10,200 nt of DNA, taken from NCBI GenBank assembly GCA_021812745.1, contig JAKAMS010000065.1:1-10200 (forward strand). The letters run 5' to 3'. Under the pieces are notes generated by a model that was not told the DNA's origin, searched no databases, and saw only the letters and a list, made by a program, of their open reading frames with translations. Position 1 is the first letter of the stretch. Each line of letters starts with the position of its first letter. Origin of the DNA: Bacteroidota bacterium. Its GTDB lineage: Bacteria > Bacteroidota > Ignavibacteria > Ignavibacteriales > Melioribacteraceae. Positions 1 to 10,200 of this stretch are shown piece by piece. Position numbers and translations under genes: made by a program.

Positions 1-1082
1 ACATTCTTGATCGTTTCGTCAGTAATGTTTCCCTCAAAATCTAGATAGAACATTTCTTCCCAAGGATTTCCAATGATTGGACGCGATTCTAACTTTGTGA
101 GGTTTACATTGTATTTGCGAAATACATTCAACGCCTCAACTAATGAACCGGCAGTATGAGATGTTGCCATAACTATTGATGTTTTACACGGTATGCGCGA
201 ATCAACTTCCTCCGGCTTGCGGGATGCAACAATAAAACGTGTAAAATTTTCTGGCTGGTTTGCAATATCCCTCTGCAAAATTTTTAGATTAAAAAGTGTA
301 GCGGCTTCTTCACTCGCAATTGCCGCAAATGATGAATTTCCAACTTCTTTTATTTTCTGAACAGACATTGCAGTATCAACAAAATATTCAACACCAACAT
401 TCGTAATTGATTCTAAGAATTTGCTGCATTGTGCGGCTGCTTGATGGTGAGCTAAAACTTTTTTGATTTTTCTTATAGGAACTTCTTCAAGTGCCACAAG
501 GCAATGCTTAACTTGAAATTTTTCTTCTCCTACAATTGAAAGAGTTGTATGAAGCAGTAAATCATAGACTTCATTAATTCCGCCGGAGGTTGTATTCTCA
601 ATCGGCAAAACTGCGTAATCGGCTTCTCCTTTTTCAACTGAATCAATTACTTCATCGAATAATTTCAAGAATACAAAATTAAGTTCATAATTGAAGTGAG
701 TAAAATATTTCTGCGTTGCCAAGTAACTATAAGAACCTTCAATCCCTTGTATTGCAATTTTTATTGCTTTCTTCTTTTCACTTTTTGTATTCAGTTTTGT
801 CTGAACAAAATTTTGCTGCAGCCGGACTGAGTCTTCAATAATTTCATAAAATACTTTGGATAGAAAATGAGAATCCAATCCTTCTTTTTTCCCAGCTTTA
901 ATCAAACGGTTGAGTAGTTCCGCTTCCCTTTGCTGATCACGAATTGGTTTATTAGAATTCTCCTTTACAACAATAACTTCTTTACTCAACTTTCTTCTTT
1001 GGGCAAGCAGTTTAATTAAGCCGGAGTCCAGTTGATTAATTTTATCCCTCAGCAAAGTAATATCTTGTTTCTTCTTAGCCAT
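1..1082 (-). CDS. pheA: Bifunctional chorismate mutase/prephenate dehydratase (P-protein), 3' end missing
   Basis: Converts chorismate to prephenate and then to phenylpyruvate in cytoplasmic phenylalanine synthesis. The frame is open from ATG at 1082-1080 to the window edge: 360 codons, against about 386 in E. coli PheA, so only the C-terminal tail is missing. Residues 1-95 are an AroQ-type mutase with the expected active-site set R12, R29, K40, D49, R52 and Q89. The dehydratase follows from about residue 106: IAIQGIEGSYSYLA, then PIENTTSGGINEVYDLL, then the catalytic TRF at 281-283. The C-terminal ACT domain shows GSLV (312-315) and ESRP (332-335), the phenylalanine-binding motifs of feedback-inhibited P-proteins; their spacing equals that in E. 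coli. Allosteric inhibition by phenylalanine is therefore expected. There is no clear Shine-Dalgarno before the start, only A-rich sequence. The gene is divergent from the electron-transfer cluster and functionally unrelated to it. The assignment is secure. Confidence 0.95.
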   Translation of the reverse strand, partial: MAKKKQDITLLRDKINQLDSGLIKLLAQRRKLSKEVIVVKENSNKPIRDQQREAELLNRLIKAGKKEGLDSHFLSKVFYEIIEDSVRLQQNFVQTKLNTKSEKKKAIKIAIQGIEGSYSYLATQKYFTHFNYELNFVFLKLFDEVIDSVEKGEADYAVLPIENTTSGGINEVYDLLLHTTLSIVGEEKFQVKHCLVALEEVPIRKIKKVLAHHQAAAQCSKFLESITNVGVEYFVDTAMSVQKIKEVGNSSFAAIASEEAATLFNLKILQRDIANQPENFTRFIVASRKPEEVDSRIPCKTSIVMATSHTAGSLVEALNVFRKYNVNLTKLESRPIIGNPWEEMFYLDFEGNITDETIKN

Positions 1083-1281
1083 TTCTATTTGTTCTATTTT
1101 CTATTGAATTGATGAATGAAACTAAAGATTTTTTAATGATAAAAAAAGTCTATTGAGGGATTCTAAACTCATTTTGTTGATTAGAAATCTAATTGTTAGT
1201 AAGTTTGAAAAGGACATAAATCTCCATTATTCTATAATTAATGGAATCTCACTAAAAGAAGATTCATTTCAGGAGGTTAAG
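1083..1281. promoter_or_regulatory. Divergent intergenic region with candidate promoter for the plus-strand cluster
   Basis: This 199-bp, very AT-rich gap separates two divergent genes and must contain both promoters. On the plus strand a perfect TATAAT lies at 1233-1238, about 44 bases before the ATG at 1282, but no good -35 sits 16-18 bases upstream; the nearest, TTGAAA at 1205-1210, is 22 bases away. An activator-dependent or non-canonical promoter is possible. I saw no sigma54 -24/-12 pair and no convincing inverted repeat. An open frame extends upstream from the first plus-strand gene to 1153, but it has no coding character and is better read as leader. Confidence 0.35.
1271..1276 (+). 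promoter_or_regulatory. Shine-Dalgarno that fixes the start of the ferredoxin gene
   Basis: A perfect AGGAGG ends five bases before ATG at 1282. The Tat motif begins four codons after that ATG. This places the true start 129 bases downstream of the longest in-frame ATG (1153), which has no ribosome-binding site. Confidence 0.85.
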
Positions 1282-2187
1282 ATGGCAAATTATTCCCGCC
1301 GCGACTTCTTAAAAACAGCCGCCATTGCTGGAACAGCAGTAACAGGATTATCATCAAAAACTAAAGCAGCGCCTAAGAATATTTTATCGGAAGATAGGAT
1401 GGGTGTATTAGTAGATACGACAGTTTGTATAGGATGCAGAAAATGTGAATGGGCTTGCAAGACTGCCCACAATTTAGAAACTACCTCTATAGACACTTAT
1501 GACGACAAAAGCGTATTTAACAAAATGAGAAGACCCGATGAAAAAGCATTAACGGTGGTCAATCAATATAGCAATGAAGATCAGGATAAATTCCCGATCA
1601 ACGTAAAAGTACAATGTATGCATTGCGATCATCCGGCATGTGTTTCTGCATGCATTGTCGGAGCTTTTTCCAAACAAGAAAACGGTTCTGTAATATGGGA
1701 CACCGACAAGTGCATCGGATGCCGATATTGTATGGTTGCTTGTCCATTTCAGGTTCCGGCATTTGAATTTAGTAAAGCACTAAAACCGGATATCAAAAAA
1801 TGTGATTTTTGTATTGAACGAACAAAAGAGAGTAAACTTCCCGCTTGTACAGAAATTTGCCCAGTCGAAGCTATCACTTACGGCCGCCGTGAAGATTTAG
1901 TAAAAGCCGCTCATCAAAAAATTAAAAATTATCCAAACCGTTACATTAACCGTGTCTATGGTGAATATGAAGTTGGCGGAACTTCATGGATATATTTGGC
2001 AAGTAATGAATTCGAGAAATTAGATTTTCCGAAACTCGGTAAAGATCCCGCCCCGGGAGTAAGCGAAGCTATTCAACATGGAATCTTTGCTTACTTTGTT
2101 CCCCCCGTTGCGCTATACGCACTGCTGGGTGGAGTAATGTGGATCAATAAAAATAAAAAGAAAACCGAGAATGAGACGGAGATATAA
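1282..2187 (+). CDS. Tat-exported HybA-like 4x[4Fe-4S] ferredoxin with C-terminal membrane anchor
   Basis: Electron-transfer subunit on the periplasmic face of the membrane, carrying electrons between an NrfD-type quinone subunit and periplasmic partners. The protein is 301 aa from the SD-supported ATG. Its N-terminus has a twin-arginine signal (SRRDFLK, residues 5-11) and a short hydrophobic stretch, implying folded export with clusters inserted. Sixteen cysteines form four sets: C49/52/55/59, C112/115/120/124, C144/147/150/154 and C174/177/189/193, the arrangement of HybA/HmcB/DmsB-type subunits. Residues about 266-288 are a single membrane helix followed by a lysine-rich tail, as in HybA. 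Two bases separate it from the NrfD-like gene. No hydrogenase or molybdopterin catalytic subunit is visible, so I do not call it hybA; the neighbouring 13-heme cytochrome makes an Hmc- or Cbc-like quinone:cytochrome complex more likely. The family is certain; the physiological partner is inferred. Confidence 0.93.
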   Translation: MANYSRRDFLKTAAIAGTAVTGLSSKTKAAPKNILSEDRMGVLVDTTVCIGCRKCEWACKTAHNLETTSIDTYDDKSVFNKMRRPDEKALTVVNQYSNEDQDKFPINVKVQCMHCDHPACVSACIVGAFSKQENGSVIWDTDKCIGCRYCMVACPFQVPAFEFSKALKPDIKKCDFCIERTKESKLPACTEICPVEAITYGRREDLVKAAHQKIKNYPNRYINRVYGEYEVGGTSWIYLASNEFEKLDFPKLGKDPAPGVSEAIQHGIFAYFVPPVALYALLGGVMWINKNKKKTENETEI

Positions 2188-2189
2188 TT

Positions 2190-3428
2190 ATGGAAGAATT
2201 CAAACCAACACCAATGAAGAAAAAATATTTTACGCCGGTAGTTATTGGCTTAGCCGTACTTGCACTCAATGGAATGATATTTTTACTAGCAAGATTTGTA
2301 TTTGGAATAGGCGCCGTTACCAACTTAGATAATCAACACCCTTGGGGAATATGGATTGGTCTTGATGTTGCAGCCGGCGTTGCGCTTGCTGCCGGAGGTT
2401 TTACGACTGCGGCATTAGGTCATATTATGCACAAAGACCAATACCACGCAATTATTCGTCCAGCACTTTTAACTGCCGCTCTTGGATATACTTTTGTTGC
2501 CGTGAGTGTAATGATTGACCTTGGTCGTCCTTATTTTATTTGGCATCCTTTAATAATGTGGAACGGAAGTTCAGTTCTGTTCGAAGTTGGTATTTGTGTA
2601 ATGATTTATCTCACAGTTCTGTACATAGAATTTTTACCAATAGTCTGCGAGAGATTTATTGGAAGAGTAAATCTTCCAGGAACGTTGAAACGTTTTAACA
2701 ATTCACTCGAAAAATTATTACGCCTTCTAGATAAAGGATTAGAGAAGACAATGTTCATCTTCATTATTGCGGGTGTTGTATTGTCTTGTTTACATCAATC
2801 ATCTCTGGGAACACTAATGGTAATTGCAGGACCCAAAATGCATCCGCTCTGGCAAACTCCTATTCTTCCCCTTCTCTTTTTAATGTCTGCAATCTCTGTT
2901 GGATTTCCGATGGTTATATTCGAATCGGTAATTACTTCACGTTCATTTGGATTAAAGCCAGAGACACATATTCTTTCTAATTTGGGAAGTATGGTGGCTC
3001 CTTTGTTAGGTATTTATCTGGCATTCAAAATTGGTGATATGATGATTCGTGGAACATTTGTTTACCTTACAACAATAACTTCTGCTAGCGTGATGTTTAC
3101 TATTGAATTATTATTTGGAGTTATAATTCCTTTGAGAATGTTTATGTCTAGGCAGATAGCAAAATCACCTACTGGACTTTTAATTGCATCATTCCTTGTA
3201 ATCTTTGGAGTATTTTTAAACCGTTTGAATAATTTTTTAGTTGCATACACACCGCCATATGAAGTTCATTCTTACTTCCCTTCAATAGGCGAAATTTCCG
3301 TAACTGTGGGCTTTATAGCATTAGAAGTTCTTCTCTTCAGAATAGCGGTAATGATTTTCCCAATTGTAAGTGTGCCTGATATGTCGCCGCAAAGAACAAA
3401 ATATTCAGTTAGAGGAGGTATACGATGA
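2190..3428 (+). CDS. NrfD/HybB-family quinone-interacting integral membrane protein
   Basis: Membrane subunit expected to oxidise or reduce menaquinone and exchange electrons with the ferredoxin encoded just upstream; the family itself carries no heme or metal. The protein is 412 aa, slightly longer than E. coli HybB, and almost wholly hydrophobic, with about ten predicted helices. Family signatures include HPWGIWIGLDV (50-60) followed by the glycine-rich ALAAGGF, DLGRPYFIW (110-118), the FEVGICVMIY helix (131-140), HQSSLGTLM (202-210), MHPLWQTP (217-224) and the C-terminal NRLNNFLVAY (344-353). The start is supported by GGAG at 2178-2181, eight bases upstream. The end overlaps the cytochrome gene by four bases (ATGA at 3425-3428), and the last codons contain that gene's strong Shine-Dalgarno, so translation is coupled. 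The family is clear. Electron direction (quinol oxidation or quinone reduction) cannot be told from the sequence. Confidence 0.93.
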   Translation: MEEFKPTPMKKKYFTPVVIGLAVLALNGMIFLLARFVFGIGAVTNLDNQHPWGIWIGLDVAAGVALAAGGFTTAALGHIMHKDQYHAIIRPALLTAALGYTFVAVSVMIDLGRPYFIWHPLIMWNGSSVLFEVGICVMIYLTVLYIEFLPIVCERFIGRVNLPGTLKRFNNSLEKLLRLLDKGLEKTMFIFIIAGVVLSCLHQSSLGTLMVIAGPKMHPLWQTPILPLLFLMSAISVGFPMVIFESVITSRSFGLKPETHILSNLGSMVAPLLGIYLAFKIGDMMIRGTFVYLTTITSASVMFTIELLFGVIIPLRMFMSRQIAKSPTGLLIASFLVIFGVFLNRLNNFLVAYTPPYEVHSYFPSIGEISVTVGFIALEVLLFRIAVMIFPIVSVPDMSPQRTKYSVRGGIR

Positions 3429-4555
3429 AGACGAAAATTTTTATTACACTTTTCTTTTGTTCGTTATTTGTAAATGCTCAGACTCAAAAGCAGGTGCATC
3501 CAAATCTTAACGGAATTACATGCAAGACTTGCCACTCTTGCGATATTCCCACAAAAGAAAATCCATGTATTCTTCCTTGTCCGCGAGAAAAGATGGTATC
3601 TATTGATCAATCTCCGGAAGACGGACCTGCCGTTATAACAATAGACAAATTCAAAAAGCAGTCGGATATTTACGCGCCCGTAGTTTTTTCTCACCGCCTT
3701 CACGCAGAGATGAGCGGAATGGCTGGCGGATGCAAAATGTGTCACCACTATAATCCACCGGGACAGGTAATTGGCTGTTCTGATTGTCATGAATTAACTC
3801 GAAAACGGGTTGATGTAAGTAAACCGGATTTGAAAGGGGCTTATCACCGTCTTTGTATGACATGTCATCGTTCATGGAGCGGTAAAACTGATTGTACAGA
3901 ATGCCATCAACAAAACGGCGCTGCCAATAAAACGCAGACCCAATCACTTGAAGATAAAAGCGCAAAACGTGTTCATCCAAAAATTATTACACCTACAACA
4001 ATTAAGTTCGATACGCCAAAGGCATCTGGAAAAATGGTAACTTTTTATCACTCTCAGCATATTGATTTATTCGGATTGGAATGCCAGAGTTGTCACTCAA
4101 ATGAAAGTTGCATGAAGTGTCATACAAAAACTCAAACAGCATCGCTCAAAATTAAAACTACAGATCAAAAACATCTTCTCTGTGCAAATTGTCATAATAC
4201 AAAGACCAACTGCAGCAGTTGTCATTCAAACACTGTGAAAGAAGGATTTAATCATAAAGAAGCAACCGGATTTGATATTACAAAATTTCACTCGAAAATT
4301 TCTTGTAATGTATGTCACCATGAAAAGGGAAAGTTCACCGGTCTTAATAAAGAATGTATCAATTGTCACGGCAAATGGACTCAAGCGAACTTCCAGCATA
4401 AAGTTACCGGCGTTGTACTTGATGAAACTCACTCAGCTTTAGAATGCAGCGACTGTCATCAAGAAAAAAATTACGCTAATCCAGTTTGCTCAAATTGTCA
4501 CGAGGACAAGTCGTATCCTAAGAATATTCCGGGTAAACTTGTTAAGAAGAACTGA
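3425..4555 (+). CDS. Exported 13-heme cytochrome c (cytochrome c3/c7-like repeats)
   Basis: Periplasmic electron carrier, most likely the cytochrome partner of the ferredoxin/NrfD pair. It is 376 aa. Residues 1-18 are a Sec signal peptide ending VNA, with no lipobox. Thirteen CXXCH motifs start at C33, 103, 118, 144, 157, 220, 229, 253, 263, 294, 311, 341 and 355. From residue 87 they fall into three four-heme groups, each introduced by F-x-H or F-x-x-H (FSHRLH, FYHSQH, FNHKEA), the distal-histidine style of cytochrome c3/c7. The first heme stands apart and is followed by extra cysteines: C39, C48 and C52, in a short segment ending CPRE. The start has an excellent SD (GGAGG at 3413-3417) inside the upstream gene. 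Its stop TGA overlaps the kinase ATG by one base. A heme count of 13 assumes every motif is filled. The exact subfamily is not recognised; operon position supports a Hmc/Cbc-like role. Confidence 0.92.
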   Translation: MKTKIFITLFFCSLFVNAQTQKQVHPNLNGITCKTCHSCDIPTKENPCILPCPREKMVSIDQSPEDGPAVITIDKFKKQSDIYAPVVFSHRLHAEMSGMAGGCKMCHHYNPPGQVIGCSDCHELTRKRVDVSKPDLKGAYHRLCMTCHRSWSGKTDCTECHQQNGAANKTQTQSLEDKSAKRVHPKIITPTTIKFDTPKASGKMVTFYHSQHIDLFGLECQSCHSNESCMKCHTKTQTASLKIKTTDQKHLLCANCHNTKTNCSSCHSNTVKEGFNHKEATGFDITKFHSKISCNVCHHEKGKFTGLNKECINCHGKWTQANFQHKVTGVVLDETHSALECSDCHQEKNYANPVCSNCHEDKSYPKNIPGKLVKKN

Positions 4556-6450
4556 TGAAACGGGTAAAGAAATTATTTAGCAAGATCAGTTTAAAACTGA
4601 TTTGGGTTGTAAGCATCACTGCGATTTTGATAATTGGAGTTTATTCATACTTCAATGTAAAATCGCAAAGCGATGTTTTAATTTCTGAGGTTAAGCGTCA
4701 TTCAGATCAACTTAGCGAATCGGTGAAGAATGCAACAAGAAATGTTATGCTTCTTAACTCGCGCGATCTGGTCCAGGAAATAATAGATAGAATTGGAAAG
4801 GATCCGGCAATTAATAACGTCCGGATTCTTAACAAAGAAGGAACCATAATATATTCGGCTCATAAAGATGATATAGGAAAGATGCTTGATAAACGCGCAG
4901 AAAGTTGTTACGCTTGTCATGCAGAAAACAAAGCTCTGGAAAAATTATCTATAAAAGACCGGACAAGAATTTTCAAACTAAATCCAGATTCTAGCCGTAT
5001 CCTTGGAATTATTAATCCGATCTATAACGAAAAATCTTGCTCTGAAGCGGATTGTCATGCCCATTCTTCCAAGGCAAAAGTATTAGGCGTTCTCGATATA
5101 ACTATTTCGCTGGCAGAAGTTGATGAACAAATCCGCCAAAATGAAATTAGAGAATTGCTTTTTGCAATCATTGCAATTACGGCGATTGGTTTAATAATTG
5201 GATTATTTGTAAAACGCTGGGTTGATTACCCAGTAAAGGAATTGATTAAAGCGACAGATCAGGTTGCTGACGGAAATTTGAATTATGTCATCAAGGATTT
5301 GAGTAAGGACGAATTAGGAACACTTAGTAAATCGTTCAATAATATGATAAAAAAACTTGATGAGACAAGCCAACAATTGTATCAATCAACAAAGATGGCA
5401 TCTCTTGGTCAACTAGCTGCCGGTGTTGCTCACGAAATTAATAATCCGCTTACAGGCGTTCTTACATATAGCAGTTTCCTTTTGAAGAGAACCAAAGATA
5501 ATCCTCAAATGCAGGAAGACCTTAATGTAATTGTAAGAGAAACAATCCGAAGCCGGGAAATTGTTAAAGGTCTGCTGGATTTTGCGCGCCAGTCAACTCC
5601 AAAGAAAAGTTTGATTGACGTAAATGAGATTATCAACAGAGCTGATGCTGTTATTAAGAATCAATTAAAGATAAACCGTATTACTCTTAAAAAAGATTTT
5701 GACAGCACTCTCCCCAAAATCACCGTTGATGCAAACCAAATTCAGCAAGTCTTCCTTAACCTATTTGTGAACGCAATTGACTCAATAGGAAATAGCAATG
5801 GATCAATTACAGTTACTACTTCGCAAATAAGCTTGTCTCCTAAAGGAATAACACAAATAAAAAATGCCGTTTGCGCTAAGAACCACACTTTGATTGATAC
5901 CGAGCATAAAATTGGCGGAATGTCTTCGCTGAAGATAAAAATTAAATCCGGGACCAATGAGGGATTTATTCACCTTGATCCGATATATGGGAATCATCAT
6001 CATTACTTTGGTATCTCGTATGACAAAAACAGCGCAATAAATCTTTCATGCCCAATTTGTGATTTTACTTTTATAGACAAAAACAGCAAATGCCCAAAAT
6101 GCGGTGGTCCGGTTTACAAAATTCAAATTCCTAATCAAGGATTTCTTGAAGGCTGCGCTTCATTTAAAGATGACTGGCAGAAATGGGATTTGATAGACCG
6201 AGCCGGCGAAAGAAAATTTATTCAGATTGAAATCAAAGATACAGGATGCGGAATTCCGCCAGAGAACATTTCAAAAATTTTTGAACCGTTTTTTACTACA
6301 AAAGGTCAGCGCGGAACCGGACTTGGGCTTTCTGTTATCTGGGGAATAATTGATAATCATAATGGATCCATTTCCGTTCAGAGTGAAGTTGGAAAGGGTT
6401 CAACATTTTCTATCCGGCTTCCTCAGGGAGATCCAATTAGAAGTATCTAA
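4555..6450 (+). CDS. Membrane histidine kinase with di-heme-type periplasmic sensor and zinc-ribbon insert in the ATPase domain
   Basis: Probable redox or ligand sensor that phosphorylates the two regulators downstream. It is 631 aa. Order: TM1 (about 12-31), periplasmic Cache/PAS-like sensor (about 34-198), TM2 (about 199-219), HAMP (about 220-272), HisKA with phospho-acceptor H293 in VAHEINNPL, then HATPase. The sensor carries CYACH (118-122) and a CX4CH motif (162-168), both c-type heme attachment patterns, the latter known from cytochrome c3. The ATPase N-box is at N402/N406; the G1 box DTGCGIP (562-568), F-box FEPFFTTK (576-583) and G2 GTGLGL (587-592) appear only after a roughly 130-residue insert (about 424-553). 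That insert has CPIC (499-502) and CPKC (513-516), a zinc-ribbon pattern, plus C440, H444, H481-483 and C534. All catalytic motifs are intact, so it should be active. It overlaps its neighbours by one base on both sides (TGATG, TAATG). Kinase assignment is certain; heme and metal binding are inferred from motifs. Confidence 0.93.
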   Translation: MKRVKKLFSKISLKLIWVVSITAILIIGVYSYFNVKSQSDVLISEVKRHSDQLSESVKNATRNVMLLNSRDLVQEIIDRIGKDPAINNVRILNKEGTIIYSAHKDDIGKMLDKRAESCYACHAENKALEKLSIKDRTRIFKLNPDSSRILGIINPIYNEKSCSEADCHAHSSKAKVLGVLDITISLAEVDEQIRQNEIRELLFAIIAITAIGLIIGLFVKRWVDYPVKELIKATDQVADGNLNYVIKDLSKDELGTLSKSFNNMIKKLDETSQQLYQSTKMASLGQLAAGVAHEINNPLTGVLTYSSFLLKRTKDNPQMQEDLNVIVRETIRSREIVKGLLDFARQSTPKKSLIDVNEIINRADAVIKNQLKINRITLKKDFDSTLPKITVDANQIQQVFLNLFVNAIDSIGNSNGSITVTTSQISLSPKGITQIKNAVCAKNHTLIDTEHKIGGMSSLKIKIKSGTNEGFIHLDPIYGNHHHYFGISYDKNSAINLSCPICDFTFIDKNSKCPKCGGPVYKIQIPNQGFLEGCASFKDDWQKWDLIDRAGERKFIQIEIKDTGCGIPPENISKIFEPFFTTKGQRGTGLGLSVIWGIIDNHNGSISVQSEVGKGSTFSIRLPQGDPIRSI

Positions 6451-7241
6451 TGAAAGAACACAAAAACATATTGATCATTGATGACGAACAAGTTGTAATT
6501 GATTCGATATCAAAAATTGCTCATCTGGAAAATTACTCTTACAGTTCTGTGCTTGATGCTAAATCTGGGTTTGAAAAGATCAATAATGAAGATTTTGATC
6601 TTATCATCTGCGATATTATGCTTCCGTGTATGGACGGTTTTCAATTTTTATCAGAACTTGAAACAAATAGAATTGAGATACCTGTTATAATGACAACAGG
6701 GTTTTCGACTATTGAAAACGCGGTTAAATCATTATATACCGGCGCAATTGAATTTATTCCAAAGCCGTTTTCTATTGATGAAATGGTGAGCGTTATTCGC
6801 CGCGGAATGAAATATAGCTCCATTGTTAGATCAAGAAAATCAGATAGTAATTCTCTTCAGCCTGTCCCTTGTCCGGCAAAATATTATCGTCTAGGTTACT
6901 CTAGCTGGATGAATAAAGATTATGATGGTTCGGTTTTAATTGGAGCTACAGATTTTTTTATAAAAACGATCGAGCAGATCAACATGATAGAACTTCTAGA
7001 TGCAAACGAAGTTTTATTACAAGCGTCACCGGCAGTTAAATTTTTTACCGAAGACGGATTAATTCACCAGCTTTATTCGGTAATTAGCGGAACAATCATA
7101 GCAAAGAATGAGAGATTATTAAAAGAACCTGAGCTCTTAGAGAAAGACCCTTATTTTGAAGGTTGGATTTATAGAATTATTCCAACTGAACTCGATTATG
7201 AGATGAAATTATTAATTCCATGCAGTTCAGATAGAACATAA
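6450..7241 (+). CDS. Response regulator: receiver fused to a degenerate GcvH-like (lipoyl/H-protein) domain
   Basis: Likely phospho-acceptor for the adjacent kinase. It is 263 aa. Residues 5-120 are a standard receiver: acidic pair D11/D12, phospho-acceptor D55 (IICDIMLP), T82/T83 and K105 in the IPKPF motif. There is no helix-turn-helix or AAA+ output. Residues about 145-255 instead resemble the glycine cleavage H protein: LYSVISG (208-214) matches the lipoyl-hairpin YAPVSG, and KDPYFEGWIYRIIP (232-245) matches the H-protein segment ending GEGWLFKIKP. Counting back from VISG, the position of the lipoyl lysine is G203, so lipoylation looks impossible. The start is set by TAATG overlap with the kinase. 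The receiver is certain; the H-like fold is a motif-based call made firmer by the better-preserved copy in the next gene. The output mechanism is unknown, possibly protein-protein contact. Confidence 0.87.
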   Translation: MKEHKNILIIDDEQVVIDSISKIAHLENYSYSSVLDAKSGFEKINNEDFDLIICDIMLPCMDGFQFLSELETNRIEIPVIMTTGFSTIENAVKSLYTGAIEFIPKPFSIDEMVSVIRRGMKYSSIVRSRKSDSNSLQPVPCPAKYYRLGYSSWMNKDYDGSVLIGATDFFIKTIEQINMIELLDANEVLLQASPAVKFFTEDGLIHQLYSVISGTIIAKNERLLKEPELLEKDPYFEGWIYRIIPTELDYEMKLLIPCSSDRT

Positions 7242-7277
7242 GTGTAAAAAAGTTTATTAATTCAAGGAGAAATAATT

Positions 7278-8432
7278 ATGCCGCTTTTTATTCTAGCAGT
7301 TATAGTTTTTATAGTCGCTGATATTATTATCAGATTCGCAATCAAAACAGTAAACGAGAAGAAAATCCGTAAAGAACGAGAGACTATATTAGATGAAAGT
7401 GTTACACTTGATTTGAGCCAGGAAGCAGTATCACTTAAACGTGCCGAAGTGCCAAATCCAAAAGCAAAAATTTTATGTGTTGATGATGAAGATATTATTC
7501 TAGATAGTTTTAGAAAAATTCTCGTACTCGACGGCTATTCGGTTGATACTGTTACCTCCGGCTTTCATGCACTTAATTTAATTAAGTCGCATCATTACGA
7601 TTTTGTTTTCACAGATTTAAAAATGCCCGAAATGGATGGAGTTGAAGTAACCAAAAAAGTGAAATTCCTGCGCCCCGATATTGATGTTATAATTATAACA
7701 GGATACGCGACTGTTGAAACCGCCGTTGATTGTATGAAGTTCGGTGCAATGGATTATGTTCAGAAACCATTTACTGAAGATGAATTGCTGGCTTTTACAA
7801 AAAAATCTTTGTTGAAAAGACAGGATAGAATTCATAAACAGCTTAAACCGCGCGTGCATATTACTCATTTAAGTGAAGAAGATACATTAAATATTGGAGA
7901 GTTTTCCATTCCGGGCGGTGTCTTTATTTCTGAAGGACATTGCTGGGCAGCTATTGCACAAGACGGAACCGTTAGAGTTGGATTGGATGATTTTGCTAAA
8001 AAATTAATTGGCAAAATTGATGACATTGAGTTTCCAAATCTTGGTATGGGAATTACTCAAGGTCAACCTTTATTCATTATTAAGCAAGGAAAGAAATCCA
8101 TTCAATTTAATTCCCCTATAAGCGGACAGGTTGCTAAAGTTAACCAAGAACTAGCCGATAATCTTTCTGCGCTCGATTATTCCACTTACGAAAAGAATTG
8201 GATTTGCATTATTGACGCTGAAAAATTGGATACAGAATTATCTCAGCTCAAAATTGGAAAGAATGCCGTTAATTATTTTCAAGACGAAATTGAGAACTAC
8301 AATAAGCGAATTAAGGATTTTATCAAAAATGATGGAAATAAATCAGAAGGGTATGAAATGTACTGGGGACAACTTGAGAATCTTGAAGAGAAGGAATGGT
8401 ACATTATTACCGGAGAATTTTTCAAGAAATAA
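7278..8432 (+). CDS. Membrane-anchored response regulator with GcvH-like domain and conserved lipoyl-lysine position
   Basis: It is 384 aa. Residues 1-22 are a strongly hydrophobic helix followed by a basic stretch (KTVNEKKIRKER), so the rest should face the cytoplasm. The receiver spans about 63-180, with D69/D70, phospho-acceptor D113 (FTDLKMPEMDG), T141 and K163. Residues about 200-325 resemble glycine cleavage H protein: GHCWAAI (220-226), DGTVRVGLDDFAKKLIG (229-245), PLFIIKQGKKS (264-274), SPISG (279-283) and a tryptophan-containing NWICII strand. Aligning SPISG with APVSG of H protein puts K272 at the lipoyl-lysine site. A charged C-terminal extension (about 330-384) is of unknown fold. 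No DNA-binding or enzymatic output is seen. SD AAGGAG at 7264-7269 lies eight bases before the ATG; the gap from the previous regulator is 36 bases. This is the last gene before a strong terminator. Known biology of H proteins suggests carriage of lipoyl-bound groups; whether this one does is untested. Confidence 0.88.
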   Translation: MPLFILAVIVFIVADIIIRFAIKTVNEKKIRKERETILDESVTLDLSQEAVSLKRAEVPNPKAKILCVDDEDIILDSFRKILVLDGYSVDTVTSGFHALNLIKSHHYDFVFTDLKMPEMDGVEVTKKVKFLRPDIDVIIITGYATVETAVDCMKFGAMDYVQKPFTEDELLAFTKKSLLKRQDRIHKQLKPRVHITHLSEEDTLNIGEFSIPGGVFISEGHCWAAIAQDGTVRVGLDDFAKKLIGKIDDIEFPNLGMGITQGQPLFIIKQGKKSIQFNSPISGQVAKVNQELADNLSALDYSTYEKNWICIIDAEKLDTELSQLKIGKNAVNYFQDEIENYNKRIKDFIKNDGNKSEGYEMYWGQLENLEEKEWYIITGEFFKK

Positions 8433-8456
8433 TAAATATTGCTGTTGAATAACTAG

Positions 8457-8494
8457 AGGAGAAAGGAGAAATCCTTTCTCCTTTTTATTTTTTT
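8457..8494 (+). terminator. Intrinsic terminator of the six-gene cluster
   Basis: A perfect 11-bp stem (8457-8467 with 8472-8482) closed by a GAAA tetraloop is followed by a T-rich run to 8494. It begins 24 bases after the last stop codon, and it separates the cluster from the downstream cytochrome gene. Confidence 0.92.
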
Positions 8495-8499
8495 GAGCG

Positions 8500-8528
8500 T
8501 TGACAAAGTCATACTAACTGAATATTTT
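8500..8528 (+). promoter_or_regulatory. Candidate sigma70-type promoter for the downstream multiheme cytochrome
   Basis: TTGACA at 8500-8505 is a perfect -35 hexamer. TATTTT at 8523-8528 follows after exactly 17 bases and matches four of six -10 positions. It lies directly after the terminator and faces the cytochrome gene. If used, transcription would start near 8535, giving a leader of about 175 bases. In AT-rich DNA such matches can be chance, but the -35 and spacing are good. Confidence 0.5.
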
Positions 8529-8710
8529 AACTAGAGACATTAGAGTCTTTTATCTGATATTAGCAAGAAATATTTTGTTTTTTGCTGATTTTTGCAATTT
8601 AGCATGCAATTTTTCTCAACACTCTCTCTAAAGTTGAGGAAGGTTGGCTTTACGAGTAGTTACTGTACATGATTTTTGAACATTATTTATAAGTCCTATA
8701 AGAAAAATTT
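8529..8710 (+). promoter_or_regulatory. Long untranslated leader before the 16-heme-type cytochrome
   Basis: No gene is seen here. One weak hairpin is visible: CTCAAC (8615-8620) pairs with GTTGAG (8633-8638) around a 12-base loop. GCAATTT occurs twice close together around 8594 and 8606. A second possible promoter, TTGAAC at 8676-8681 with a TATAAG-like -10 near 8698, would give a very short leader. No Shine-Dalgarno precedes the ATG at 8711, only an A-rich stretch. No riboswitch class is recognised. Confidence 0.3.
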
Positions 8711-10200
8711 ATGGAAAAACTTGCTTCCCTAATATTCACATCAATTATATTTCTTTCTTCTGTAACCGCTCAGAGCAAGGATGATCAAGTTTGCCTTGAC
8801 TGCCACGGTGATAAAACATTTACAACAACACGTAATGGAAAAGAAATTTCGCTTTTTGTAAACGGAAAGTCATTTGCCGGATCGGTTCACGAAGAAGTAA
8901 GTTGTACCGGATGCCATAGTGATGTTGACCCAAACAATCTGCCCCATCCAGAAAAATTAAATAAAGTAGTATGTGCATCTTGCCATGAAACTGAAGCTTC
9001 ACATTACGATAGAAGTCTGCATGCCCAAGCTTTGAAAAAGGGATTATCGTTAGCGCCCACTTGCGCCTCTTGCCATACAAAACATGAAATTCTTTCTGCC
9101 AAAAATCCAAAATCAAGAACTTATGTGATGAACATTCCCGCTCTATGCGGTCAATGTCATAAAGAAGGAACTGCAGTTTCAGGAATGGTAAATCCGGAAG
9201 AACGAAAAGTTCTTAGCGATTATACGGAATCCATTCACGGCGAAGGTTTATTTAAACGTGGTTTAATAGTTACTGCGGTTTGTACCAGCTGCCACACTTC
9301 TCATGATATATTGCCACATACAAATCCGGAATCAACAATAAATCGTAATAACATAACAAAGACCTGCACTCAATGTCACAGACAAATTGAGCAAGTGCAT
9401 ACAAAAGTAATTAGAGGTGCTCTTTGGGAAAAAGAACCGCATAAAATTCCTGTTTGCATTGACTGCCACGCACCACATAAAGTCCGTAAAGTTTTTTATG
9501 ACGACAGTTTTCCTAACGATAAGTGCATGAAATGCCATTCACAAAAAGATCTTTCTAAAGTTGTTGATGGTAAAAAAGTTTCCCTATACGTAGATATAAA
9601 TCAATTTAATAACTCTGTTCACAAAGTCAATTCATGCGTTAAATGTCATACAAATATGAGCAATTCAAAAAATCCTGTTTGCCTAAACAGCGGAAAAGTT
9701 GATTGCTCTATTTGCCATACCGCTCAAGTTGATGATTATAACATTAGTTTACACGGACAAAAACACGCGGTTGGTGATAAATTAGCGCCATATTGCACAG
9801 ATTGTCACACAACTCATAATGTTCAATCGAAGAAGAATATTACCTCCCCAACTTTTGCACGTAATGTGCCGGAACTATGCGGAAGATGTCACCGAGAAGG
9901 AAAAAATATTGCTGTTGCATTAGATGAAAGCAAATTAGGAATTGTTGCCAACTATAGAGAAAGTATCCACGGAAAAGGATTATTACAAAGCGGATTGATG
10001 GTTACTGCAACATGCGTCAATTGTCATTCAAGCCACAGAGAGTTGCCAAAGAAAGACCCCCGTTCAACTGTAAATCCGAATAATATAGCTACAACTTGTG
10101 CACAATGTCATCTTGGTGTTTATGAAGAATTCAAGAAAAGCGTTCATAGCCCAGATGTTACGAAGACAGACAAAAAACTTCCCGTATGTAACGACTGCCA
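8711..10200 (+). CDS. Exported giant multiheme cytochrome c, at least 15 hemes, 3' end beyond window
   Basis: Exported electron carrier or reductase of the multiheme cytochrome c superfamily. The 496 complete codons are open to the edge. Residues 1-20 are a Sec signal peptide ending VTA, just before QSKDDQ. Fifteen complete CXXCH motifs start at bases 8792, 8903, 8972, 9062, 9146, 9281, 9365, 9455, 9524, 9635, 9704, 9794, 9878, 10013 and 10097. A sixteenth (CNDC followed by CA) starts at 10187 and is cut by the edge. Recurrent S-[VLI]-H and ESIHG-type histidines before heme motifs probably supply distal ligands. The protein is two eight-heme units in tandem. The ATG at 8711 is chosen because it directly precedes the signal peptide; it has no Shine-Dalgarno. 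It is separated from the upstream cluster by a terminator and has its own promoter candidate, so it is a related but separately transcribed gene. The full length, any C-terminal membrane or catalytic domain, and final heme count cannot be seen. Confidence 0.93.
   Translation, partial: MEKLASLIFTSIIFLSSVTAQSKDDQVCLDCHGDKTFTTTRNGKEISLFVNGKSFAGSVHEEVSCTGCHSDVDPNNLPHPEKLNKVVCASCHETEASHYDRSLHAQALKKGLSLAPTCASCHTKHEILSAKNPKSRTYVMNIPALCGQCHKEGTAVSGMVNPEERKVLSDYTESIHGEGLFKRGLIVTAVCTSCHTSHDILPHTNPESTINRNNITKTCTQCHRQIEQVHTKVIRGALWEKEPHKIPVCIDCHAPHKVRKVFYDDSFPNDKCMKCHSQKDLSKVVDGKKVSLYVDINQFNNSVHKVNSCVKCHTNMSNSKNPVCLNSGKVDCSICHTAQVDDYNISLHGQKHAVGDKLAPYCTDCHTTHNVQSKKNITSPTFARNVPELCGRCHREGKNIAVALDESKLGIVANYRESIHGKGLLQSGLMVTATCVNCHSSHRELPKKDPRSTVNPNNIATTCAQCHLGVYEEFKKSVHSPDVTKTDKKLPVCNDC
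8792..10200 (+). repeat. Tandem eight-heme coding duplication, period exactly 732 bp
   Basis: Unit 1 is 8792-9523 (residues 28-271) and unit 2 starts at 9524 (residue 272). Each of the eight heme motifs in unit 1 recurs exactly 732 bases (244 codons) later in unit 2, including the sixteenth at the window edge. The units are diverged at protein level. Over the segment around the sixth and seventh hemes I count about 32 identities in 53 residues by eye, and lower similarity elsewhere, so this is an old duplication kept in strict register. Confidence 0.9.

Follow-up and report, generated by a model that had tools for sequence, protein, structure and literature searches.

Response regulators with a GcvH-like output domain are linked to HybA-NrfD-type electron-transfer genes in a Melioribacteraceae contig and its relatives

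What does a two-component system control when its response regulators end in a domain resembling the H protein of the glycine cleavage system (GcvH) and carry no recognizable promoter-binding part? This question is raised by a stretch of 10,200 nucleotides (nt) of the Melioribacteraceae contig JAKAMS010000065.1 (assembly GCA_021812745.1; the whole stretch is hereafter called the window), in which a compact row of plus-strand genes encodes a HybA/HmcB-like iron-sulfur (FeS) protein, an NrfD-family protein, a multihaem cytochrome, a histidine kinase and two response regulators, RR1 and RR2. Most response regulators take DNA, an enzyme or a motor as their target. For the pair in the window we propose that a diheme kinase gates or assembles a quinone-to-cytochrome complex directly by phosphorylating the receiver-GcvH proteins, with no promoter in between, a proposal to which we give an even chance of being correct.

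RR1 (6450..7241, + strand, 263 amino acids) is a soluble protein and RR2 (7278..8432, + strand, 384 amino acids) a membrane-anchored one. The layout of a receiver followed by H-protein-like sequence, which an initial annotation had read in both, was borne out by Pfam, by sequence matches in the PDB and by AlphaFold2 models compared with Foldseek. The receiver of RR1 (6468..6797, +, residues 7-116; Response_reg, 5.0e-26) carries the acidic pair D11/D12, the phosphoacceptor D55, T83 and K105, and that of RR2 (7470..7793, +, residues 65-172; 3.2e-30) carries D69, D70, D113, T141 and K163, the acidic pair, phosphoacceptor Asp, Thr/Ser and Lys being present in both. Family alignments were made of 50 RR1 and 69 RR2 rows, window included, with incomplete open reading frames (ORFs) and ORFs outside set lengths excluded; one of the RR2 rows (L076) is probably a hybrid kinase, judged by its kin in L077. 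D55 and K105 of RR1 occur in 50/50 rows and D11, D12 and T83 in at least 90%, and each of the five RR2 residues in 69/69. The receivers of RR1 and RR2 are intact, and phosphorylation is therefore plausible.

The C-terminal domains match GCV_H at residues 151-254 of RR1 (6900..7211, +; 4.3e-14, 52.9 bits against a cut-off of 22.2) and residues 219-336 of RR2 (7932..8285, +; 2.2e-18, 66.7 bits), and the PDB sequence matches to these halves were GcvH in 13/13 cases for RR1 and 13/17 for RR2. AlphaFold2, given alignments of 48 and 53 relatives, returned models with a predicted local distance difference test (pLDDT) of 94.2 and a predicted template-modelling score (pTM) of 0.90 for RR1, and with 82.3 and 0.52 for RR2, whose overall arrangement is less certain. 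For both models the top Foldseek match in the PDB was the E. coli H protein (3a8i_E; template-modelling score on the target 0.88), the RR2 model reaching up to 0.92 with 3a7a_B, and receivers were among the next matches. As the initial annotation had held, Pfam contains no DNA-binding, AAA+ or enzymatic output for either regulator at E up to 1; the weaker matches of RR2 (Biotin_lipoyl, NQRA_N and PDE8A_N) all lie below cut-off. A winged helix or other DNA-binding output was considered and rejected, with none in Pfam and with the best 50 Foldseek matches per model covering GcvH or receivers. RR2 additionally begins with a transmembrane helix (7281..7343, +; mean hydropathy 2.83 over residues 4-22), and an N-terminal hydropathy above 1.6 is found in 68/69 RR2 rows compared with 1/50 RR1 rows. 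Within this helix D15 and R19 are each kept in 67/69 rows and, should the positive-inside rule apply here, would lie near its cytoplasmic end. Among protein matches to RR2 the closest (98%) belongs to a Melioribacteraceae metagenome-assembled genome (MAG).

An H-protein fold invites the reading of a lipoyl switch, raised in the initial annotation, in which a lipoyl-bound intermediate would be carried by the domains under the control of the receivers. The lipoyl-lysine column does not sustain it: the column holds K in 5/5 genuine GcvH sequences (from five of seven fetched loci, in genomes with a glycine cleavage system, the other two having failed the motif filter) but only in 1/50 RR1, 10/69 RR2 and 1/48 of the receiver-less relatives described below. 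At this position the window's RR1 has G203; its RR2 does have a lysine, K272 (8091-8093), but one not kept by the family, and in those ten RR2 rows, the window's included, the residues before K are KQG, KQN, RQG or RVG, those of genuine GcvH being ESV or EAV. A separate GcvH of normal score is also encoded in seven of the eight RR2-bearing genomes tested, the exception being G007, which may be incomplete. RR1 and RR2 were accordingly rejected as lipoyl carriers on the lysine column, and with the fold and K272 of the window on its side the lipoyl switch is scarcely credible.

A different cofactor might take the place of lipoate, the GcvH-like domain itself binding a metal or redox cofactor and sensing the cytoplasmic redox state while the kinase senses the periplasm. 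H206 of RR1 is conserved in 49/50 rows, C141 in 41/50, C195 in 36/50 and C258 in 40/50, with all four together in 29/50, and a Cys-rich insert of the kinase would suit the same reading. The window's own RR1, however, has A195 in place of the cysteine, and the RR1 proteins of several loci lack C141 and C258, leaving this explanation very doubtful.

The genomic company of the two regulators suggests a target. The first locus set comprised 78 loci, obtained from the best 80 of 547 matches and leaning to Ignavibacteria, of which L075-L078 were left out. In the remaining 74 loci with an RR2 relative, the DNA covered contains the kinase in 66, RR1 in 53, NrfD in 60 and HybA in 57. Among the 38 loci with at least 6 kilobases (kb) upstream and at least 3 kb downstream of RR2, kinase, NrfD and HybA are each found in 37 and RR1 in 28; NrfD and HybA occur together in 37/38, and the locus without the kinase is L063. 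The second set covered 198 genomes of the phylum of G001 (Stygiobacter electus, locus L010), with RR2 called at E <=1e-60 and window-type NrfD at more than 500 bits, and contained RR2 in 18 and window-type NrfD in 20 genomes. Each of the 18 RR2 genes has an NrfD gene on the same strand no more than 6 kb away, and 17 of the 20 window-type NrfD genes have RR2 at a distance of 3.8-3.95 kb. The neighbour of the eighteenth RR2 (G142), 1.6 kb away, is a more distant NrfD, and one of the three window-type NrfD genes without the link (G055) is on a contig that ends inside the kinase. Co-presence of RR2 and window-type NrfD gave a Fisher P of 1.3e-20 with kinship ignored, a value that is only descriptive because the genomes share ancestry. 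NrfD genes are scarce, numbering 1-5 per 3-6 Mb genome in eight RR2-bearing genomes. The survey thus ties the receiver-GcvH pair to the HybA/NrfD complex far beyond chance.

The link holds across two gene orders. In a tree of 67 RR2 proteins, from which the L076 row and the second RR2 copy of L027 (at 11311, looking genuine) were left out, a supported set of 40 rows (100/100) is preceded by RR1 throughout, and in another set of 16 rows (100/99) none is preceded by RR1 and 14 have HybA within 1.9 kb downstream; RR2 is therefore linked to HybA whether it follows RR1 or stands alone before HybA, in separate supported groups. RR2 carriers include Ignavibacteria, Calditrichota, KSB1, Elusimicrobia, Acidobacteria and beta- and gammaproteobacteria. 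In the phylum of G004 (a Burkholderiales MAG), RR2 was found in 1/299 genomes, the seed itself, so that proteobacterial copies look sporadic. In L011, L017, L052 and L064 the cluster holds two RR2 paralogues, one before HybA-NrfD and one after kinase-RR1, and the two copies of L027 stand in a row without HybA-NrfD.

Relatives without a receiver extend the association. The 198 genomes hold ten further NrfD genes of a second type (216-268 bits), none with RR2, and 10/10 have a receiver-less GcvH-like gene 0.82-1.02 kb upstream on the same strand. Its product has the layout of RR2 minus the receiver, with an N-terminal hydrophobic helix (12/12 proteins of the ten loci, hydropathy 2.1-3.2), a GcvH-like domain and a C-terminal tail, and hhalign matched the L164/L165 pair to RR2 from residue 183 onward (prob 99.4%, E 7e-22). 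Within these ten regions (L164, L165, L178-L185) a second, soluble GcvH-like or related gene is present in nine, a related kinase in eight and an NtrC-type regulator in seven. The soluble proteins of L180, L184 and L185 match GCV_H at 2.2e-13, 2.6e-12 and 7.5e-15, and those of L180 and L184 match the GcvH part of RR1 at 23-26%.

More distant GcvH-like hits led to three Qrc-type menaquinone reductase operons (L186 6690-13356, L187 5888-12528, L188 1919-8386), in which GcvH-like genes stand on both sides (3/3 fetched), with a related kinase and/or NtrC-type gene and an archaemetzincin-type gene nearby. In L188 QrcA and QrcD score over the NCBIfam cut-offs and QrcB and QrcC do not; QrcD of L186 and L187 is 72% and 71% identical to that of L188, and the other three subunits 31-69%. 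GCV_H was over cut-off in 3/5 of the flanking proteins scanned, on which no receiver was found. A relative of the Qrc-side protein occurs in 14/198 genomes of the phylum of G206 (a Syntrophobacteraceae MAG), in which the strongest GCV_H matches, among the matches listed, score like genuine GcvH. Ten regions from this phylum contain at least two GcvH-like genes in nine cases, HybA and NrfD in eight, the related kinase in nine, an NtrC-type regulator in nine and an archaemetzincin-like gene in eight, with up to three GcvH-like copies beside one HybA-NrfD; in L192 the sequence stops short of any HybA/NrfD, and 17 kb of L196 contain none. These regions and L186-L188 show the link in one direction only, because they were picked by their GcvH-like hit. 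Since GcvH-like proteins thus accompany second-type NrfD, the HybA-NrfD of another phylum and Qrc operons as well, the lysine-less GcvH-like protein appears to be the fixed partner of such complexes, and the receiver something added. NtrC stands beside the kinase in most of the receiver-less operons read; in the window type RR1 and RR2 follow the kinase. Tentatively, and at less than even confidence, we propose that lysine-less GcvH-like proteins are an unnoticed regular partner of HybA-HybB/HmcC-type and Qrc-type quinone complexes, and that those of the window type bear receivers through which a haem-sensing kinase would switch electron flow by phosphorylation, without transcription.

Regular partners need not be regulators of activity. 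The GcvH-like proteins might be assembly or maturation factors of the complex, comparable to the redox enzyme maturation protein (REMP) chaperones of molybdoenzymes, with the receivers making assembly redox-dependent. This would account for the same linkage data, up to three GcvH-like copies per operon are more than a simple subunit needs, and many receiver-less operons include an archaemetzincin-type gene. On the other side, the transmembrane anchor of RR2 with D15/R19 and its strong conservation fit a lasting membrane partner equally well, and we know of no chaperone resembling GcvH; on balance we regard this explanation as rather unlikely, if worth keeping in view. The archaemetzincin-type gene stands beside GcvH-like/NtrC operons in L164 (12693-13232), L165, L179, L180 and L183-L186, with further copies in L188-L191, L193, L194 and L196-L198, and the L183 copy scores over the NCBIfam archaemetzincin cut-off.

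The signal would come from the kinase (4555..6450, +; HisKA 7.2e-15, HATPase_c 2e-23, HAMP 3.8e-11), which appears from its motifs to be a diheme c-type sensor kinase: two putative haem-c motifs, CYACH (residues 118-122) and CSEADCH (162-168), lie in the sensor region (4906..5058, +) and are both found in 53/53 complete kinase ORFs of the loci (at least 480 residues and at least 350 bits, one of them from L076). The HATPase domain is interrupted by a Cys-rich insert of about 120 residues (5842..6210, +, residues 430-552; C440, H444, C499, C502, C513, C516 and C534). Among 53 aligned kinases, window included and all pre-selected for the haem motifs, the insert is present in 43 and missing in ten, each Cys or His being kept in 42-43 of the 43. 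The insert had no Pfam match over cut-off and in the PDB only a weak one (rubrerythrin, E 0.12); it is probably a metal-binding ribbon. A tight link between insert and RR1 was rejected, the insert being found without RR1 nearby in L051, L055 and L056 and RR1 without the insert in L039, L042, L044 and L054. The haem motifs, the insert, the transmembrane helix of RR2 and the unconserved lipoyl lysine had all been overlooked in the initial annotation.

Put together, the six genes would form a quinone-to-cytochrome electron-transfer complex of HybA, NrfD and a 13-haem cytochrome with a signalling unit of its own, consisting of kinase, RR1 and RR2. The kinase would read the periplasmic redox state through its two haems and phosphorylate the receivers of RR1 and RR2. 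RR2 would be held at the membrane and RR1 would be free in the cytoplasm, with the GcvH-like domains serving as protein-docking domains for the complex and not as lipoyl carriers. Phosphorylation may then alter docking and in this way gate the activity or assembly of the complex without a promoter. Haem sensing, phosphotransfer, docking and the direction of control are the steps that we infer here, next to the observed domains, folds, lysine loss, operon layout, linkage and receiver-less relatives. A switch on the electron-transfer complex in place of a promoter had already been suggested in the initial annotation; this part agrees with the HybA/NrfD linkage and the missing promoter-type output, and the linkage suggests that the phosphorelay may act on the complex itself; the lipoyl part of the suggestion falls away.

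A conventional route through transcription has to be weighed against this. RR1 and RR2 could be phosphate sinks or relay steps whose output is transcription by an NtrC-type regulator encoded elsewhere, the GcvH-like domain serving only for localization. Intact receivers would be expected of such proteins, an NtrC-type gene stands by the kinase in 7/10 and 9/10 of the two groups of receiver-less regions, and a sigma-54 activator motif is found in 18 of the 51 window-type loci of at least 12 kb. The DNA covered in the other 33/51, however, yielded no motif of this kind, and a phosphate sink would have no need of a conserved fusion to a GcvH-like domain that is tied to HybA-NrfD; we judge this explanation unlikely.

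Several observations weigh against direct control of the complex by its GcvH-like partners, or narrow it. The 18/51 loci with a sigma-54 motif mean that a transcriptional branch may exist beside direct control. L027, read over 10 kb on each side, has kinase, RR1 and RR2 but no HybA/NrfD; G167 and G203 have HybA-NrfD-cytochrome without kinase, RR1 or RR2 in the 19 kb read, and the window-type complex can therefore do without them. RR1 was not found in 21/74 loci, some of them short contigs, and the soluble proteins of L164/L165 gave no significant profile match to RR1 and no Pfam match. In our own reading of the eight RR2-bearing genomes, only 8/25 NrfD matches, one in each genome, lie within 10 kb of a GCV_H match: the link is confined to one NrfD type, and other NrfD types there are without a GcvH-like neighbour. 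The window's HybA, finally, seems to be exported by the twin-arginine translocation (Tat) system, and a cytoplasmic GcvH-like domain could therefore reach only NrfD or the HybA tail. HybA of L164 and L165, which belong to the receiver-less type, has no visible signal at its start. Because the window HybA appears exported and that of L164/L165 shows no visible signal, NrfD is the likelier common contact of the GcvH-like proteins.

Among known proteins, GcvH (PF01597) shares fold and sequence family with the C-terminal domains of RR1 and RR2, which differ in being fused to a receiver, in not keeping the lipoyl lysine and in being encoded in an electron-transfer operon. LbpA of the sHdr sulfur-oxidation system is likewise a GcvH-like protein outside glycine cleavage whose gene lies beside an electron-transfer complex; LbpA is lipoylated, whereas the RR1 and RR2 families do not conserve the lysine. 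Related Qrc menaquinone reductase (QrcABCD) operons, L186-L188, are also flanked by GcvH-like genes with related regulators near, but these flanking proteins have no receiver and the window has no molybdopterin-like subunit. Response regulators with protein-binding outputs resemble RR1 and RR2 in that a receiver controls a non-DNA target; the output here is a lysine-less GcvH-like domain, and RR2 is anchored in the membrane. Receivers fused to electron-transfer subunits offer a further parallel: in L075 (9841-10716) and L078 (10867-11736) a receiver is joined to a NuoE-like 2Fe-2S domain, near a receiver-GcvH gene (GCV_H just below cut-off in L078) and NuoE, NuoF and molybdopterin subunits, of which the NuoF and molybdopterin genes of L078 were assigned by cluster membership. 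The fusion appears to be another receiver grafted on an electron-transfer complex.

The receiver + GCV_H architecture is already present in databases under names such as 'response regulator' or 'glycine cleavage system protein H'. No description of receiver-GcvH proteins, or of GcvH with NrfD, was found in the titles and abstract beginnings of open-licence literature among the matches listed, and this operon is not treated in the portions of PMC5492636 and PMC5701242 that were available. RR1 and RR2 would be response regulators with a probable protein-docking output, and the wider link between GcvH-like proteins and NrfD is the more novel part. If the proposed mechanism is true, electron flow could be retuned fast after a redox change by a regulator that docks on the respiratory complex. 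The relatives without a receiver hint at something more general, in which a whole class of quinone complexes would have a GcvH-like partner. In operons of this kind, genes annotated plainly as 'response regulator' or as 'glycine cleavage system protein H' probably encode neither lipoyl carriers nor transcription factors.

The remaining genes of the row recall Hmc of Desulfovibrio and HybA/HybB of E. coli hydrogenase 2, which share the FeS and NrfD-type subunits, Hmc also having a multihaem cytochrome. The regulators of hmc are Rrf1/Rrf2; receiver-GcvH regulators set the window operon apart from both systems, as does the position of its proteins below the NCBIfam cut-offs of HmcB, HmcC, HybA and HybB. 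The HybA/HmcB-like 4Fe-4S subunit (1282..2187, +), for which the start at 1282 was chosen by reading where the program's ORF begins at TTG 1153, scores 324.9 bits with HmcB (4.3e-97; cut-off 420) and 253.1 bits with HybA (cut-off 263). Its Tat-like signal is a weak match (TAT_signal 21.3 bits, cut-off 22.7), and its C-terminal hydrophobic stretch, read by eye, may be a transmembrane tail. The NrfD-family integral membrane subunit of HybB/HmcC type (2190..3428, +; Pfam NrfD 4.5e-22) reaches 351.4 bits with HybB (cut-off 450) and 275.6 with HmcC (cut-off 550). The multihaem cytochrome c (3425..4555, +; Cytochrom_CIII 1.3e-17) has 13 CxxCH motifs counted by eye, making it a 13-haem and not a 16-haem protein, and scores 50.8 bits with the HmcA model against a cut-off of 400.

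The NrfD and cytochrome genes overlap by 4 nt, cytochrome and kinase by 1 nt, and kinase and RR1 by 1 nt. An intrinsic-terminator-like stem of 13 pairs followed by a T run (8455..8484, +) lies 22 nt past RR2 and likely marks the end of the transcript; it is the longest of ten terminator-like sites found in 1000-9000, where 5.3 were expected. Because of these overlaps and the stem, the layout suggests that the six genes from 1282 to 8432 form a single transcription unit ending after RR2. Beyond the stem a second long multihaem cytochrome frame runs from about 8702 and leaves the window at 10200, apparently as a separate transcript, and a relative of it follows RR2 in several Ignavibacteria loci.

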